64,000 bases of DNA from assembly GCA_020402865.1 (NCBI GenBank), contig JADBYT010000009.1, positions 1 through 64,000 on the forward strand, read 5' to 3'. The notes beneath the pieces are model-generated. The model saw only the letters and a list, made by a program, of their open reading frames with translations. It searched no databases and was not told where the DNA came from. Origin of the DNA: Bacteroidota bacterium (GTDB taxonomy: Bacteria > Bacteroidota > Bacteroidia > Palsa-965). The stretch's first letter is position 1, and each line of letters opens with the position of its first letter. The translations under genes and the position numbers were made by a program. This document shows positions 41,592-47,558 of the stretch, piece by piece.

Positions 41592-42488
41592 TTACTCGCT
41601 TACACGAATTACCCCTTCGCGCGGTTTGCGGGCATTTTCGGTTGAACCGTTTCCATAGCGCCAGCCCAGCACAATGCCTCCGCGAAGCATGGCACGATAA
41701 CCGCTCACATCATCGAGGCCGGTTACCTGTGTGCCAAGCGAACAAAAGAGTGATACATTCAGATTCTGACTGGGCTGAATAAGCACACCATTTACCACAC
41801 CCACTGATGAAAACCACGTGCGGGTGAGTTCACCCGCGCCGGGCTGCGGAAAGGGCCCAAAAATGGGACGCGTATAATTCACCTGTCCGTATTCCCATGT
41901 AAGCCCTACAAAATAGCTTGAGAAATTCTGACCCGAGGGATAATAGCGAAGATCGAATCCGGAGCTGAATACTTTGTTCCGGTTGTAATAATAGAAATCC
42001 GGATAGCCGATATTGTCGGGCTGCAAACCGCTTAGTCCGCTCAATCCGAACGAAAGCGGGAAACGCAGCGAAACATTGTCTTTAAATACATTGACTTCGT
42101 AGCTTAACGAGATAATGCCGGGAAGCAGATCAGTAACATTAAGTCCGATCAGGTGTTTCCGCTTGAAGCCATTACTGTCGGGCAACATGTTACGGGTAGA
42201 AGGTGCGCGTGATGAACTGCTGGAAGCAGGGCGCTGAGACTGTGATTTAGGCGCTACAAACACATCGCTGTGCCCGTCGGCATAAACCACTTTGCGCACT
42301 TCAGCAGTTTTAATTACATATACAGGGCCGCTTCCGTTATCGCCTTTTTTATACTTGATTTCCGAAGCCGAAACTTCGGTTACCTGAATGATCATCTTCT
42401 CGCCGTTGGTGCGATAAAGCGTATCCTGTGCCTTTGCAATAAATGATGTACACAGTACAAATAGTGTGAGCAAAAATTTGAATTTCAT
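41592..42488 (-). CDS. Outer-membrane beta-barrel-type exported protein
   Basis: This 298-residue protein has a signal peptide (MKFKFLLTLFVLCTSFIAKAQ). A short N-terminal beta domain (about 22-80: DTLYRTNGEKMIIQVTEVSA, YVIKTAEVRKVVYADGHSDV) is common in Bacteroidota envelope proteins. A Ser-rich linker (SSSSSRAPS) follows, then a beta-barrel-like stretch (VTDLLPGIISLSYEVNVF; SFGLSGLSGLQPD; LRYYPSGQNFSSYFVGLTWE; GIVLGWRYG). A structural or transport role in the outer membrane is inference. It converges with the gene at 41023. Confidence 0.75.
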   Translation of the reverse strand: MKFKFLLTLFVLCTSFIAKAQDTLYRTNGEKMIIQVTEVSASEIKYKKGDNGSGPVYVIKTAEVRKVVYADGHSDVFVAPKSQSQRPASSSSSRAPSTRNMLPDSNGFKRKHLIGLNVTDLLPGIISLSYEVNVFKDNVSLRFPLSFGLSGLSGLQPDNIGYPDFYYYNRNKVFSSGFDLRYYPSGQNFSSYFVGLTWEYGQVNYTRPIFGPFPQPGAGELTRTWFSSVGVVNGVLIQPSQNLNVSLFCSLGTQVTGLDDVSGYRAMLRGGIVLGWRYGNGSTENARKPREGVIRVSE

Positions 42489-42605
42489 AACTTATGCTTG
42501 TTAATGAATAAGACGTGTAATGTGTTAAAAGTTGCTTCCCAAATATAGGTAAATGTATTCGTGTTATATTTATGAGAGATGTTAGTATTTTCCGCACTTT
42601 CAATA

Positions 42606-42719
42606 ATGCTCGATGCACTTAGCGGCGAATTGGTACTGAGTGCCTTTCTGCTGCTTTGCGCAATGGTAGCGCTGATTACGTTTTTAGTAATGTGGATCAT
42701 TCGTAAACGCAGGAAATAA
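42606..42719 (+). CDS. 37-residue single-helix membrane microprotein
   Basis: MLDALSGELVLSAFLLLCAM starts a 37-residue protein with one membrane helix (about 9-31) and a basic RKRRK tail, so the C-terminus faces the cytoplasm. The gene was below the size threshold of the ORF list. Its stop overlaps the next start (TAATG at 42717-42721), which supports it being real and translationally coupled. Function is unknown. It may be a small subunit or regulator of the membrane proteins encoded after it. Confidence 0.65.
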   Translation: MLDALSGELVLSAFLLLCAMVALITFLVMWIIRKRRK

Positions 42720-43039
42720 TGCCGTTCTGGGGTGCTTTTGTCTTTACTGTGTTTAGTGAGTGGCTGCTGTTCAGCGGCTTTTCGCGGTATGCGCTGAAGC
42801 TTACGCTCTTTTTTATCGTGCTCCTAAATTTAGTAACCTGGCCGGTAATAAACTGGCTTTATGCCACCACGGCTATTCCGCTCTGGCAGCTGGAAACGGG
42901 TGTGTGGCTGGTGGAATCTGTAATCATAACCATACACTGGCAATGGCCGCTTTGGCGGGGAGCCGTTGCTGCACTGCTTATCAACGCCGGAAGCTGGGGC
43001 ATTGGCAGTGTGCTTGAACACGTTTTTTTCGGCCAATGA
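42719..43039 (+). CDS. Small membrane protein in a coupled operon
   Basis: This 106-residue protein has three hydrophobic segments (about 1-20, FWGAFVFTVFSEWLLFSGF; 26-48, LKLTLFFIVLLNLVTWPVIN; and 80-101, RGAVAALLINAGSWGIGSVL) and Trp-rich loops. No named family was recognised. The start overlaps the microprotein stop and the stop overlaps the MFS start (ATGA), so all three genes should be translated from one message. Confidence 0.7.
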   Translation: MPFWGAFVFTVFSEWLLFSGFSRYALKLTLFFIVLLNLVTWPVINWLYATTAIPLWQLETGVWLVESVIITIHWQWPLWRGAVAALLINAGSWGIGSVLEHVFFGQ

Positions 43040-44061
43040 AGCAGCGCAGCTCCCTGACACTTTTGCTGCTTGGTGCGGCACACGGCCTGAACGATTTTGT
43101 GGCCGGGGCGCTGCTTGCGTTTTGCAGCCGCACACTACCCGGCAGTGAAACCGCCGTGTGGTTTACGGTGTATGTGGCCTTAGCCTTTGCCGCACAGGTG
43201 CCGCTGGCGCTGATAGCCGATAAATTTCCGCAATGGCGCTGGTGGCTGGCGGGGGCGCTTACACTCATTGCCGCAGCAGCCATGTTAGGAAGCACGCACA
43301 CAGGTGTGGCAGTTGTACTGAGCGGCGTGGCATCGGCAGCGGTGCACGTGGCGGGCGGTGCGTGGGCCTTGCAGCTAAAGGTGCCACAAGGTTTAGGTGC
43401 CGGTGTGTTTGCCGCGCCCGGCATTGTGGGCCTTACGCTGGGCGGATTTGCACAGCTGCATGGATTTACGTGGACAGCATTGGCCGCAGCCGCGCTGGGC
43501 ATTGGTGCCACACTTTTTGCATTGCGCCCCGAGCTGCGTGCCCGCGAGAAAAAAACGGCAGAAAAACCGCCACACCTGTTTGACCGGCACGATGCGTTTA
43601 TGCTCCTGCTGCTGCTGGTGATCACACTTCGCTCGGCCGTGTGGGATATTTTTCAGGCCATACACACCGGCAGCGAGCAGGTGCTGCTGGGCATAGCCCT
43701 GGCGGCCGCCGCAGGAAAAATAACCGGCGGCTGGCTGGCCGACAAAATGAATTCGCTGCAGGTGCTTGGCGGCACGCTGCTTTCGTCGCTGGGCCTGCTG
43801 CACTTTAGCGAAAAGCACGAAGCGTTTTTGTACACCGGCATAGCATTGCTGCAGGCCACGCTGCCGGCATCGGTATTGCTGCTGCACCGCCTGCTGCCGG
43901 GCTGGCCGGCTATGACCAACGCGCTGGTACTCGGCCTTGCCGTAACACTTGGCGGCTTCCCCTACATGCTCGATGCACCCGCGCTACTCACTCCCCTCAC
44001 ACTCACGCTGCTACTGCTGGCCGCAATACTATGGTGGATCAAACGCCCCCAATCCCCGTAA
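43036..44061 (+). CDS. MFS-type membrane transporter
   Basis: This 341-residue protein has about ten hydrophobic segments. MFS-like features are the loop LIADKFPQWRWWLAGALTL (the D-K-x-x-x-R/W motif A region) and, in the second half, KITGGWLADKMNSLQVLGGT, repeating motif A. It is shorter than the usual 12-helix MFS protein of about 400 residues. The substrate is unknown. The start overlaps the small membrane protein. The last codons and the TAA (44059-44061) fall inside a 37-base tandem repeat, so the C-terminus may have been altered by the repeat. Confidence 0.85.
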   Translation: MKQRSSLTLLLLGAAHGLNDFVAGALLAFCSRTLPGSETAVWFTVYVALAFAAQVPLALIADKFPQWRWWLAGALTLIAAAAMLGSTHTGVAVVLSGVASAAVHVAGGAWALQLKVPQGLGAGVFAAPGIVGLTLGGFAQLHGFTWTALAAAALGIGATLFALRPELRAREKKTAEKPPHLFDRHDAFMLLLLLVITLRSAVWDIFQAIHTGSEQVLLGIALAAAAGKITGGWLADKMNSLQVLGGTLLSSLGLLHFSEKHEAFLYTGIALLQATLPASVLLLHRLLPGWPAMTNALVLGLAVTLGGFPYMLDAPALLTPLTLTLLLLAAILWWIKRPQSP

Positions 44062-44124
44062 GGGCGCGATACATCACTCCCGGCAAGAATCCCCGTAAGG
44101 GCGCGATGCATCGCGCCCGGCAAG
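44051..44124. repeat. 37-base tandem repeat, two copies
   Basis: Copies at 44051-44087 and 44088-44124 differ at four positions. The second contains a perfect 20-base palindrome GGGCGCGATGCATCGCGCCC (44099-44118). The matching part of the first (44062-44081) is degenerate. The first copy supplies the stop codon of the MFS gene. Confidence 0.9.
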
Positions 44125-44127
44125 AAT

Positions 44128-44184
44128 GCCCGAAGGCCGCACCACGCCCGAAGGCCGCACCACGCCCGAAGGCCGCACCACGCC
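44128..44184. repeat. 18-base tandem repeat, three copies
   Basis: GCCCGAAGGCCGCACCAC occurs at 44128-44145, 44146-44163 and 44164-44181 without change, then GCC begins a fourth. It follows the 37-base repeat directly and is followed by an A-rich run. Confidence 0.92.
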
Positions 44185-44565
44185 AAAAAAACAAATCCCA
44201 AAAAAAACAAATGCCCCAAAAAAACAACACACTACACGCGCGTGAGGGATGGAGGCGGCAGCGAGCGGCGGCGGGGCCTTGTGCTGCCGCAACGAGCAGG
44301 CGACCGGAGGAAGCCCGCGCAGTGCGAGCAGCACACAGCCCCGCCACCGCGACTACAGCCGACAGCCCGACCCTTTGCCGGAGTGATGCCTTTTTGAGGG
44401 AAAGCGGCAAAGGGGCACGCCCTAAGAAAATACTTCGTTCTGAAAAAACAACAAGTTACTTTCTTCGCACACGCATGATGACGAGTAAAACAATCGCAAT
44501 GACCTGGATAGCGAAGAAAATCGTTTACAAAGGCAATTTGCCGACAGGAATTGCTCCTGAATAAA
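44185..44565. other. Non-coding region with large inverted repeats
   Basis: Nothing protein-like is seen here. Two strong inverted repeats are present. GGCGGGGC-CTT-GTGCTGC (44270-44287) pairs with GCAGCAC-ACA-GCCCCGCC (44328-44345), and CCCTTTGCCG (44371-44380) pairs with CGGCAAAGGG (44405-44414). Together they could fold as two hairpins in RNA or be a multicopy intergenic element. The last 150 bases show no structure. Confidence 0.6.
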
Positions 44566-45084
44566 CTACATTACCACCTCACCCGAACGCAGGTAACGCC
44601 TGCGCACCCACCACACCAGCAAGGCAACCAGCGCCGATGCGCCAAGCACGGGCAAAAGCTGCATACCCGGCGAAAGCGGCTCCTGCGTAGCGGTAACACC
44701 AAAACCTTCATTACGTGTTGAAGGTGAATCGAGCCGTGTAAATTTCACCACACTGTCATTCACCACCGAGTCGATGCGCAGAATTACATGGCCGTTTACG
44801 CCGGTGAAATAACCGAGGTTGTATGTTTTACCACTATCGGCACGGCTTACCTGAAACGAAAAGCTGATGGGTGCACCGCGCCCGCCGGGCATGTGAATAA
44901 GCGTGGAATCATGCAGCCAGTAGATGGTATCGCCGTAATTGGGCGAGAGTGAAAAACGAAACGCAGGAAATGCACTGGCGTTTACCACCATGAACGAGCC
45001 TGATGGGCGTGGCTTGCTGCCCGGCATATCGGCAAGAGCCGGCAGGCAGAGCAACAATAAAAAGAAAGTGAGCAAACGTTTCAT
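44566..45084 (-). CDS. Exported protein with C-terminal membrane anchor
   Basis: This 172-residue protein has a signal peptide (MKRLLTFFLLLLCLPALA). A beta-rich extracytoplasmic domain follows (FMVVNASAFPAFRFSLSPNY, TLIHMPGGRGAPISFSFQVS, HVILRIDSVVNDSVVKF). A C-terminal helix (about 146-164, LLPVLGASALVALLVWWV) is followed by RRRYLRSGE facing the cytoplasm. The family was not recognised. The ATG at 45084 is chosen because residues before it in the open frame do not look like a protein. It is downstream of the DUF5916 gene on the same strand. Confidence 0.72.
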   Translation of the reverse strand: MKRLLTFFLLLLCLPALADMPGSKPRPSGSFMVVNASAFPAFRFSLSPNYGDTIYWLHDSTLIHMPGGRGAPISFSFQVSRADSGKTYNLGYFTGVNGHVILRIDSVVNDSVVKFTRLDSPSTRNEGFGVTATQEPLSPGMQLLPVLGASALVALLVWWVRRRYLRSGEVVM

Positions 45085-45125: not shown

Positions 45126-47558
45126 CTAACTTTTCCGCTTTTTCGCAAACGCCTTGATCTGCTGCGCCTCGAGAAACCAGATGAGTTTGAACGACAAACT
45201 GTTTACCTGCGGCTGATTGAACACATAATCTGCATCTTCGAAATAGTTGCGGAAAAGCTGCTGGGTGTTGCCCACAATTGTGTTTTTCCATACCAGACTC
45301 AGTTCGCTGCCGGGCACAAACTGCCAGGTAAAAATCATGTCGATGGTGAAGGCGTTGAACGTAATATCGCTGTTGCGGTTGAAGCCTGTGCTGCTCTCTT
45401 TTCCTTCATTATTCAGTGCAAAAAACGAGGTGTAACGCGCCTCCGACCAGTAGTGGCGGATGCGTGTTGTGAGAATCATGGTGCTGTTGAAGGTGTAATT
45501 GACGTTGATGGTGTTGGTAACCGTACGCAGGTTGCGCACACCCATAATGATGGAATCGTTATACATGGTTACGAAGCCCACATTATCGGTTTTAAATTCG
45601 TTTTCGTTACGGATAACGAAGAAAAGATGATCGTTTGCACGCACGCGCGGGGCAATGGTGTAGCGCAAAATAGTACGGTTGCGTTCGAGAAAAATGCGGT
45701 AAGAGGCCGACATGTCGAGTGCAAACACTTTGCGGTAGTCGGATGAAATAAATCCGCCTGCTTCGTAGTTGCGCGGATAAATCATATAACGGCCGGGTAC
45801 GCGGGGTTCGAAATAATCGTTGTTGCGCACAGGCTGCGTGAGCCAGTTGATACCGGCTGTCATAAAATTGCGGTACGTGGCAATTACGCGTCCGTTGATG
45901 GTAAGAAACGTAAAATCGCGCGGGAGATAAAGCTGGCCGTAGTCGATGTTTATATCGCTGGTGATGCGCACGAAACGGCGGAAGGGCTTGAAGATATTGT
46001 ATTTTAACGTAGTGCCGTAGCTGATTACGTTGTTACGTTCCTGAAAGCCCATGTCGGTAGGATCGAACTTATCGCTGACGAGGCGGTGGCGGATTTCGGC
46101 CTGAAATTTTCCGCTGAACTTTCCGGCGCGGATATAGTAACGATAACCACTTACAGGAGCAGCCGTATTGCGCGGCCACACCAGACTGAGATCGGCAAAA
46201 CCTTCGGTGCCCCACACGTTTTTCTTTTCCACCAAACGAAACTGCGCCGAACTCACATTGGCATCGCGTGCTTTTCCATTGCGCATTACATTGGTATTGA
46301 GAAAGCCGAGGTAGGAATTTTTACCGATTACCTGTTCGGCCACAAACACATTGTAATTGGCCAGTTCTTCGGTACGCACTTCGCGCACTTTGCCGCTCAT
46401 CGTATCGCGCAAAAGCGCATCAACCGGAGCCGACACCGCATTTAAAAAACCAATGCCGAGGTTGCCCGGTGTGCGGCCGCTTATTTTCATGGCATTGTAC
46501 AGTTTGGCCACACCGGGGTTGTTTTCAATCACCTCATTGGTATCGAGCTGAGTGCGCACACTGTTAAAACCCGATGGCTGTGCACCGATGCGGCGCGAAT
46601 AAAAAAGATCGTTTTTATTAAACAGCTCCGTTCCTTCGGTAAAAAAGTACCGCCGCTCATCGAACTTGATTTCAAACGGCGAGAGATTGAGCACAAGGTT
46701 ATCGCTGATGGTTTGCCCGAAATCGGGAATAAGCGTCATGTCGAGTGTAAAACTCTCGTTGATGCCCAGCTTTACATCCATGCCGCCGTTGAGCGAATAG
46801 GATTGTTTACCCTGAAAATTATCGGCATAGCCCGACACGTAGGGAAGCATGGCCAAACGAAGCGGCGGCAATATGTTTCGGATACCCTTAAGGTCGCCAA
46901 ACTGGTTGACAATACCCTGCACGTTCTGGTCGATGTTGTTCCAGTACGAAAACTCGCGGTGGCGGCGCAGCCCGCGCACAAAATTCAGTCCCCACATCTG
47001 CTCGGGCTGATTGGGAAAGCGCAGCGAGTAATAGGGAATTTTCAGTTCGGCGGTCCAGCCTTTGGCATGACGTTTTACGCGGCTGTACCATACACTGTTG
47101 AGGCTGTAGTCGAATTTATCTACCGTTACACGGGCATCAATCTGCACGTTTGCGGCCGATACTGCAAAGTAAAATGCGTTGCGGCGGTCGCGGTAGGTAT
47201 CGAGATACACGCCAAACAGATCGGAATTGGTGTTTTCATCGTCGCGCGCACCCAATTGCGCCAGCACACTGTCGGGCGATGAGTCGTGCATTTCGGCCAG
47301 AATAAAAATCGCCTGATCGTTGTAAAGTACGCGTACTTCGGTGTGCTGCCGGGGTGAATTGCCGGGGTTGGGCTGCTGCTGCACAAAATCGGCCGCTACG
47401 GATGCTGCTTTCCAGCAGGAATCGCTGCCGTCGCCGTCAATTTCGGGAACAGCGGCAGTGCGCAGCGCCTCCATACCGCGTATGGTTTGCGCCTGCAGCG
47501 GGCCGGCAGCCAAAAGCACCAGCACGAATAAAAAACGTATCAGGACATTTGAGTTCAA
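45126..47558 (-). CDS. DUF5916 outer-membrane protein with CBM9-like domain
   Basis: This 810-residue protein has a signal peptide (LIRFLFVLVLLAAGPLQAQ). A carbohydrate-binding family-9-like domain follows (about 35-215: PEIDGDGSDSCWKAASVAAD, LYNDQAIFILAEMHDSSPDS, GWTAELKIPYYSLRF). A DUF5916 barrel-type region makes up the rest (about 230-810: PYVSGYADNFQGKQSYSLNG, FTLDMTLIPDFGQTISDNLV, EIKFDERRYFFTEGTELF, ending VNSLSFKLIWFLEAQQIK). The combination is common in Bacteroidota, and the role is unknown. It may be a surface glycan- or protein-binding barrel. It has its own upstream region, divergent from the DUF1905-type gene. Confidence 0.9.
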   Translation of the reverse strand: MNSNVLIRFLFVLVLLAAGPLQAQTIRGMEALRTAAVPEIDGDGSDSCWKAASVAADFVQQQPNPGNSPRQHTEVRVLYNDQAIFILAEMHDSSPDSVLAQLGARDDENTNSDLFGVYLDTYRDRRNAFYFAVSAANVQIDARVTVDKFDYSLNSVWYSRVKRHAKGWTAELKIPYYSLRFPNQPEQMWGLNFVRGLRRHREFSYWNNIDQNVQGIVNQFGDLKGIRNILPPLRLAMLPYVSGYADNFQGKQSYSLNGGMDVKLGINESFTLDMTLIPDFGQTISDNLVLNLSPFEIKFDERRYFFTEGTELFNKNDLFYSRRIGAQPSGFNSVRTQLDTNEVIENNPGVAKLYNAMKISGRTPGNLGIGFLNAVSAPVDALLRDTMSGKVREVRTEELANYNVFVAEQVIGKNSYLGFLNTNVMRNGKARDANVSSAQFRLVEKKNVWGTEGFADLSLVWPRNTAAPVSGYRYYIRAGKFSGKFQAEIRHRLVSDKFDPTDMGFQERNNVISYGTTLKYNIFKPFRRFVRITSDINIDYGQLYLPRDFTFLTINGRVIATYRNFMTAGINWLTQPVRNNDYFEPRVPGRYMIYPRNYEAGGFISSDYRKVFALDMSASYRIFLERNRTILRYTIAPRVRANDHLFFVIRNENEFKTDNVGFVTMYNDSIIMGVRNLRTVTNTINVNYTFNSTMILTTRIRHYWSEARYTSFFALNNEGKESSTGFNRNSDITFNAFTIDMIFTWQFVPGSELSLVWKNTIVGNTQQLFRNYFEDADYVFNQPQVNSLSFKLIWFLEAQQIKAFAKKRKS

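Follow-up and report, generated by a model that had tools for sequence, protein, structure and literature searches.

Do three small overlapping membrane genes in a Bacteroidota genome, the first of them only 37 codons long, encode the parts of a single membrane module, or are they unrelated neighbors? We addressed this question in the window, by which we mean the whole 64,000-nt stretch analyzed here (contig JADBYT010000009.1, positions 1 to 64,000). The initial annotation had described a microprotein, a three-helix protein and a short MFS-type transporter whose frames overlap at TAATG and ATGA joints, and both the frames and the joints are indeed present. It had overlooked a fourth gene, on the opposite strand, for an anchored, beta-rich protein that elsewhere directly precedes the gene for the middle protein. 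We named that middle protein EN4, as a four-helix protein with invariant Glu and Asn residues. The features are as follows.

42606-42719, plus strand: microprotein ORF (37 aa, MLDALSGELVLSAFLLLCAMVALITFLVMWIIRKRRK), identified from the ORF list, codon score and conservation
42717-42721, plus strand: TAATG stop/start overlap from the microprotein ORF to the EN4 ORF, a joint that recurs in relatives
42719-43039, plus strand: EN4 ORF (106 aa), sharing TAATG with the microprotein ORF
43036-43039, plus strand: ATGA start/stop overlap from EN4 to the MFS-like ORF
43036-44061, plus strand: MFS-like ORF (341 aa), sharing ATGA with the EN4 ORF
44566-45084, minus strand: bitopic anchored protein (172 aa), convergent with the MFS gene

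No sigma-70-type promoter was found upstream, and a single Bacteroidetes-type -7 match, on the opposite strand, was no more than expected by chance. Around and after the MFS stop (44051-44216) lie two 37-nt copies, 92% alike and containing an inverted pair, as well as three perfect GCCCGAAGGCCGCACCACGCC copies spaced 18 nt apart and two A-rich copies of 16 nt.

Codon usage in the microprotein frame resembles that of the window's genes and is unlike that of the other five frames (0.21 bits per codon, versus -0.15 to -0.57). A score this high is reached by 0.6% of 36-codon non-coding windows, while 26% of real-gene windows score lower. An alternative in-frame ATG at 42579, which would extend the protein to 46 aa, is possible but less likely to be the start; 42606 is favored because the relative in G002, a genome of the same genus, begins at the matching position, directly on the stop of the preceding gene. 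The microprotein has one transmembrane helix, with an N-terminal L-D motif predicted to lie outside and a basic RKRRK tail predicted to lie inside.

The initial annotation had made its case depend on conservation of the 37-codon frame, and we found the frame conserved in related genomes: in G002 (with the same TAATG joint), in G006, in L014, and in G007, which carries two microproteins in tandem. Peptide identity among these relatives is 28-41%, and the L-D motif, the single helix and the basic tail are common to them. A profile built from six members matched exactly four of the 12 genomes of the window's family (G000, G002, G006 and G007), and within that family these are also the four genomes with EN4. 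As the profile contains those genomes' own copies, leave-one-out recovery is the fairer test. With its own copy removed, the window's microprotein was recovered at E 2e-4, above every non-member among 2,429 ORFs, and the two G007 microproteins at E of about 1e-10 and 7e-10; recovery of the remaining members was weak (E 0.015 to 0.08). Among 58 window genes, none has a strict form of the L-D motif within its first 12 residues. A motif of this type opens the microproteins and also the long-form EN4 proteins that we compared from genomes without a separate microprotein, and the N-terminus MPAFxPVLLD is common to the second microprotein and the EN4 of G007.

In relatives, EN4 is preceded by single-helix proteins that combine a basic tail with an L-D motif at the N-terminus, often with TAATG as the joint. 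This joint before EN4 occurs also in G002, L010, L115 and L118, and is replaced by TAATATG in G007, G247, L080 and L112. Recurring joints of these two kinds suit coupled translation, and the microprotein frame might accordingly be read as a leader that feeds ribosomes onto EN4 through the stop/start overlap, the peptide itself being inert. We consider such a leader improbable, as the peptide sequence, with its motif, helix and tail, is conserved; moreover, the microprotein lies about 1.6 kb away from EN4 in G006, forms the tandem pair in G007, and remains intact in G002 despite a broken EN4. Further, its place can be taken by other proteins. The EN4 start of L010 and of G247 coincides with, or adjoins, the end of a different single-helix frame that has a basic tail; the G247 versions carry a signal peptide, whose removal would leave a microprotein-like mature protein of about 40 residues. 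The microprotein proper is confined to some Bacteroidia; elsewhere signal-peptide or long anchored proteins replace it, and it is thus not universal. In G006, genes for a Crp-like regulator and a 258-aa multi-helix protein separate the microprotein from EN4 (L009, 355-1902), and neither gave a clue to a substrate.

Type I toxin-like peptides are small and have one helix and a basic tail. In these three respects the microprotein would pass for one of them, a toxin or stress peptide that is small and hydrophobic, but in several genomes a stop/start overlap ties it to an operon that is conserved and transporter-like, and we regard a toxin as very improbable. A PADLOC scan of six proteins for anti-phage defense gave no match.

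EN4 is predicted to have four helices rather than the three initially counted, at residues 3-21, 26-50, 55-74 and 78-104 (AlphaFold2, pLDDT 91). Alignments show a two-helix unit that is present twice, with invariant pairs E14/N37 and E66/N89. When compared by hhalign, the two halves align with a probability of 97.7 (P 1.9e-12), and their Glu and Asn fall into register. Such scores are inflated by membrane composition, but the matching placement of the invariant pairs argues for a true internal duplication.

EmrE, of the SMR family, has about 110 aa, four helices and a glutamate at position 14, in helix 1. EN4 is similar in length, helix number and the position of its first Glu; it differs in being internally duplicated, with two Glu/Asn pairs, and a Pfam scan of 12 members gave no SMR match. 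The fold search with the EN4 model returned no confident match of any kind, and no SMR structure was among the matches listed. Kinship with FraC, a filament integrity protein that is also a small polytopic membrane protein, was considered and dropped: single EN4 members matched PF24301 / NF045624 at E 0.03 to 0.1, never reaching the curated cut-off, and nothing in the window's genome scored above that cut-off. Neither EN4, the microprotein nor the anchored protein had any match above cut-off in Pfam, NCBIfam or PADLOC, and a PDB sequence search revealed no significant relatives for EN4, the anchored protein or the MFS-like protein.

The 341-aa protein matches Pfam MFS_1 over both halves (E 8.8e-8, profile positions 1-318 of 347) with a score of 31.9 bits, just below the 33.4 cut-off, and nine of the 13 members of its family alignment match the same profile (best E 1e-13). 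Judged by its sequence, it is a member of a divergent MFS subfamily, in which H16, D20, Q54, H104, H185-D186, R199, K228 and Q273 are invariant in the alignment. A simple hydropathy count gives 8-11 helices in most members, against the superfamily criterion of twelve in two six-helix bundles. No plasmid-borne relative of the MFS-like protein was found. In G825 the MFS frame seems to continue into a 154-aa soluble protein (L118, 1498-2994), which in that genome's relatives is a separate, overlapping gene after the MFS gene; the apparent run-on suggests a further partner in the second class of Bacteroidota in which we found the subfamily. Related lipoproteins (CTSNEIGxSKDV) without a Pfam match are convergent with the MFS gene in two loci (L010, 1628-2326, minus strand; L045, 1751-2506, plus strand). 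Neither these lipoproteins nor the 154-aa protein provided a substrate clue.

The protein encoded at 44566-45084 has a signal peptide, the sequence DMPGxKPRPS past the predicted cleavage site, a beta-rich ectodomain and a C-terminal helix with basic residues after it. Its model (AlphaFold2, pLDDT 69) shows the signal helix, about nine strands and the C-terminal helix. The fold search gave no significant or confident match for it, the HGSNAT and PepT2-ectodomain hits being weak. Homologs of this protein lie directly before EN4 in L014, in G282 and in the second class, where a protein of the anchored type of about 220 aa is followed by EN4 and then the MFS gene; in G006 the homolog is convergent with the MFS gene. 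Several of the second-class bitopic proteins are matched by the Bacteroidia profile of the 44566-45084 family (E 8e-9 to 1e-5), those of L119 and L120 are recognized only by the second-class profile, and that of L121 is a 106-aa form that starts with SDLPGN after the signal peptide. Since homologs directly precede EN4 in relatives, the usual order is bitopic protein, EN4, MFS, and the microprotein is most readily understood as a bitopic protein reduced to a minimum and occupying the first of these positions. Two anchored proteins also occur in tandem within one locus (L119, 46-1168; L120, reverse complement, 217-1490), as do the single-helix proteins of G007 and G247, and in L120 both lie between EN4 and MFS. 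In the window, a gene for a DUF5916 and CBM9-like protein (45126-47558, minus strand) is directly upstream of the anchored-protein gene, a pairing kept in G002.

The layout of these bitopic proteins (signal peptide, ectodomain, helix, basic tail) is that of C-terminal sorting signals, one to three of them occur per locus, and weak, sub-threshold matches to CTERM and LPXTG anchor models were obtained. They could then be clients, processed or moved by EN4 and the MFS-like protein acting as a sorting or surface-assembly device. However, no NCBIfam sorting-signal model was matched above cut-off, comparison by eye found no common motif before the helix in the bitopic proteins compared, and the microprotein has neither signal peptide nor ectodomain. 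We consider a sorting device unlikely, if less so than a leader.

We compared the distribution of the MFS subfamily with that of EN4. Among 395 Bacteroidia genomes, the subfamily is present in eight and EN4 in 13, and all eight carriers of the subfamily also carry EN4 (Fisher p 9e-14 when genomes are counted and 1.6e-10 when genera are). In two of these (G012 and G347) the two genes are present and unlinked. Because the linked cases had supplied the profile seeds, new genomes were tested independently. EN4 lies directly upstream of the MFS gene in all three new MFS genomes outside Bacteroidia, and it is present in all eight testable further loci of the same second class, two additional loci cut at a contig end being left out as untestable. 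In total, 19 of the 19 testable genomes, among 21 with the MFS subfamily, have EN4, across two Bacteroidota classes; the eleven from the second class turned up after the link had been proposed, and as the MFS genomes there are mostly from one genus, these loci are not fully independent. Most of the new second-class loci also have a bitopic protein before EN4.

Conversely, EN4 is present without the MFS subfamily in G119, G235, G266 and G292, and so is not tied to that subfamily alone. One EN4 gene without MFS (L041, 3066-3416) precedes a secA-like gene, the same neighbor that follows the module in L010. Such solitary EN4 genes, as well as the genes around the module, which vary between genomes, are what would be expected if the operon were an ordinary one, with unrelated small membrane genes beside a stand-alone MFS transporter. 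Against this stand the presence of EN4 in every testable MFS genome, in two classes and even when unlinked, and the joint decay and block absence described below; we judge an ordinary operon about as improbable as a leader.

In G002 the microprotein is intact, EN4 is interrupted by a nonsense codon, and both a frameshift and an in-frame stop disrupt the anchored-protein gene. The MFS subfamily was not found in this draft, which is 72% complete, so that its absence is provisional: the missing gene may reflect a gap in the draft, and the lesions may not be genuine. The broken anchored-protein gene lies at a spot that is empty in G001 and G003, where a glycoside-hydrolase-like gene follows the DUF5916 gene with no anchored protein between them. 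In G004, a further genome of the genus, only 56 bp separate the DUF5916 gene from a homolog (31% identity) of the gene at 41592-42488, neighbors that in the window lie on either side of the module; all four module genes are thus absent as a block. The module appears, decays and disappears together across two Bacteroidota classes, supporting a conserved, multi-part membrane module that was not described before. On this point the initial proposal gains from gene order, co-occurrence and joint loss, and needs correction in its helix count and its omission of the anchored partner.

MFS proteins are, to our knowledge, usually regarded as self-sufficient, and their documented accessory subunits are mostly eukaryotic. 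A limited literature search found no published bacterial MFS protein with small accessory proteins. AcrZ is not known to share an overlapping operon with its partner AcrB, which, unlike the MFS-like protein at our locus, is an RND pump. As described in the consulted passages of a small-protein review, AcrZ (49 aa) is a single-helix protein acting on a bacterial transporter. In its single helix and in having fewer than 50 residues it is like the microprotein, which would likewise act on a transporter; the same passages showed no bacterial MFS case (PMC10710835). MFSD1, a lysosomal dipeptide transporter, requires the single-span protein GLMP (PMC6819133, PMC11252000), whose lumenal domain is a beta-sandwich and whose single helix is adjacent to the C-domain of MFSD1 (PMC11252000). 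Both there and in our module, an MFS protein would have a dedicated single-span partner with an outer-side beta domain, although the model of the bacterial ectodomain is only moderately confident. The eukaryotic pair differs in having neither a four-helix subunit nor a microprotein, and no sequence relation was detected; the resemblance is one of layout, not kinship.

We favor, with a probability of roughly 0.6, the reading that the product of the locus is an inner-membrane secondary transporter built from several subunits, with single-span accessory ones among them. The topology, contacts and transport that we infer for it are these. The substrate path would run through the MFS-like protein, as its family suggests. 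EN4, in which Glu and Asn are buried, would be its obligate partner and lie packed against it, as suggested by co-occurrence. The single-span proteins, with their N-termini outside and C-termini inside, would serve as accessory subunits, of which the anchored beta-rich protein may cover the outer face. The microprotein would be a stripped-down bitopic protein lacking the ectodomain, its helix packing against EN4 or MFS to promote assembly or stability. Translation would be coupled through the stop/start overlaps, such that the subunits are made together.

More tentatively, and with odds somewhat short of even, we postulate that (i) MFS, EN4 and interchangeable single-span subunits constitute an unrecognized class of obligate multi-subunit secondary transporters in Bacteroidota, with EN4, by virtue of its duplicated Glu/Asn hairpin a protein of its own kind, as the defining component, and, as part of the same joint reading, that (ii) the interchangeable subunits can be as small as a helix of 37 residues or as elaborate as a beta-rich domain at the surface. 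A bacterial MFS subfamily that always occurs with a four-helix protein, and usually with single-span partners, would offer a tractable example of an MFS system made of several parts, for which genomes having, lacking and losing the module are available for comparison. If the reading is true, it would also provide a function for a microprotein of a size that gene finders tend to miss.
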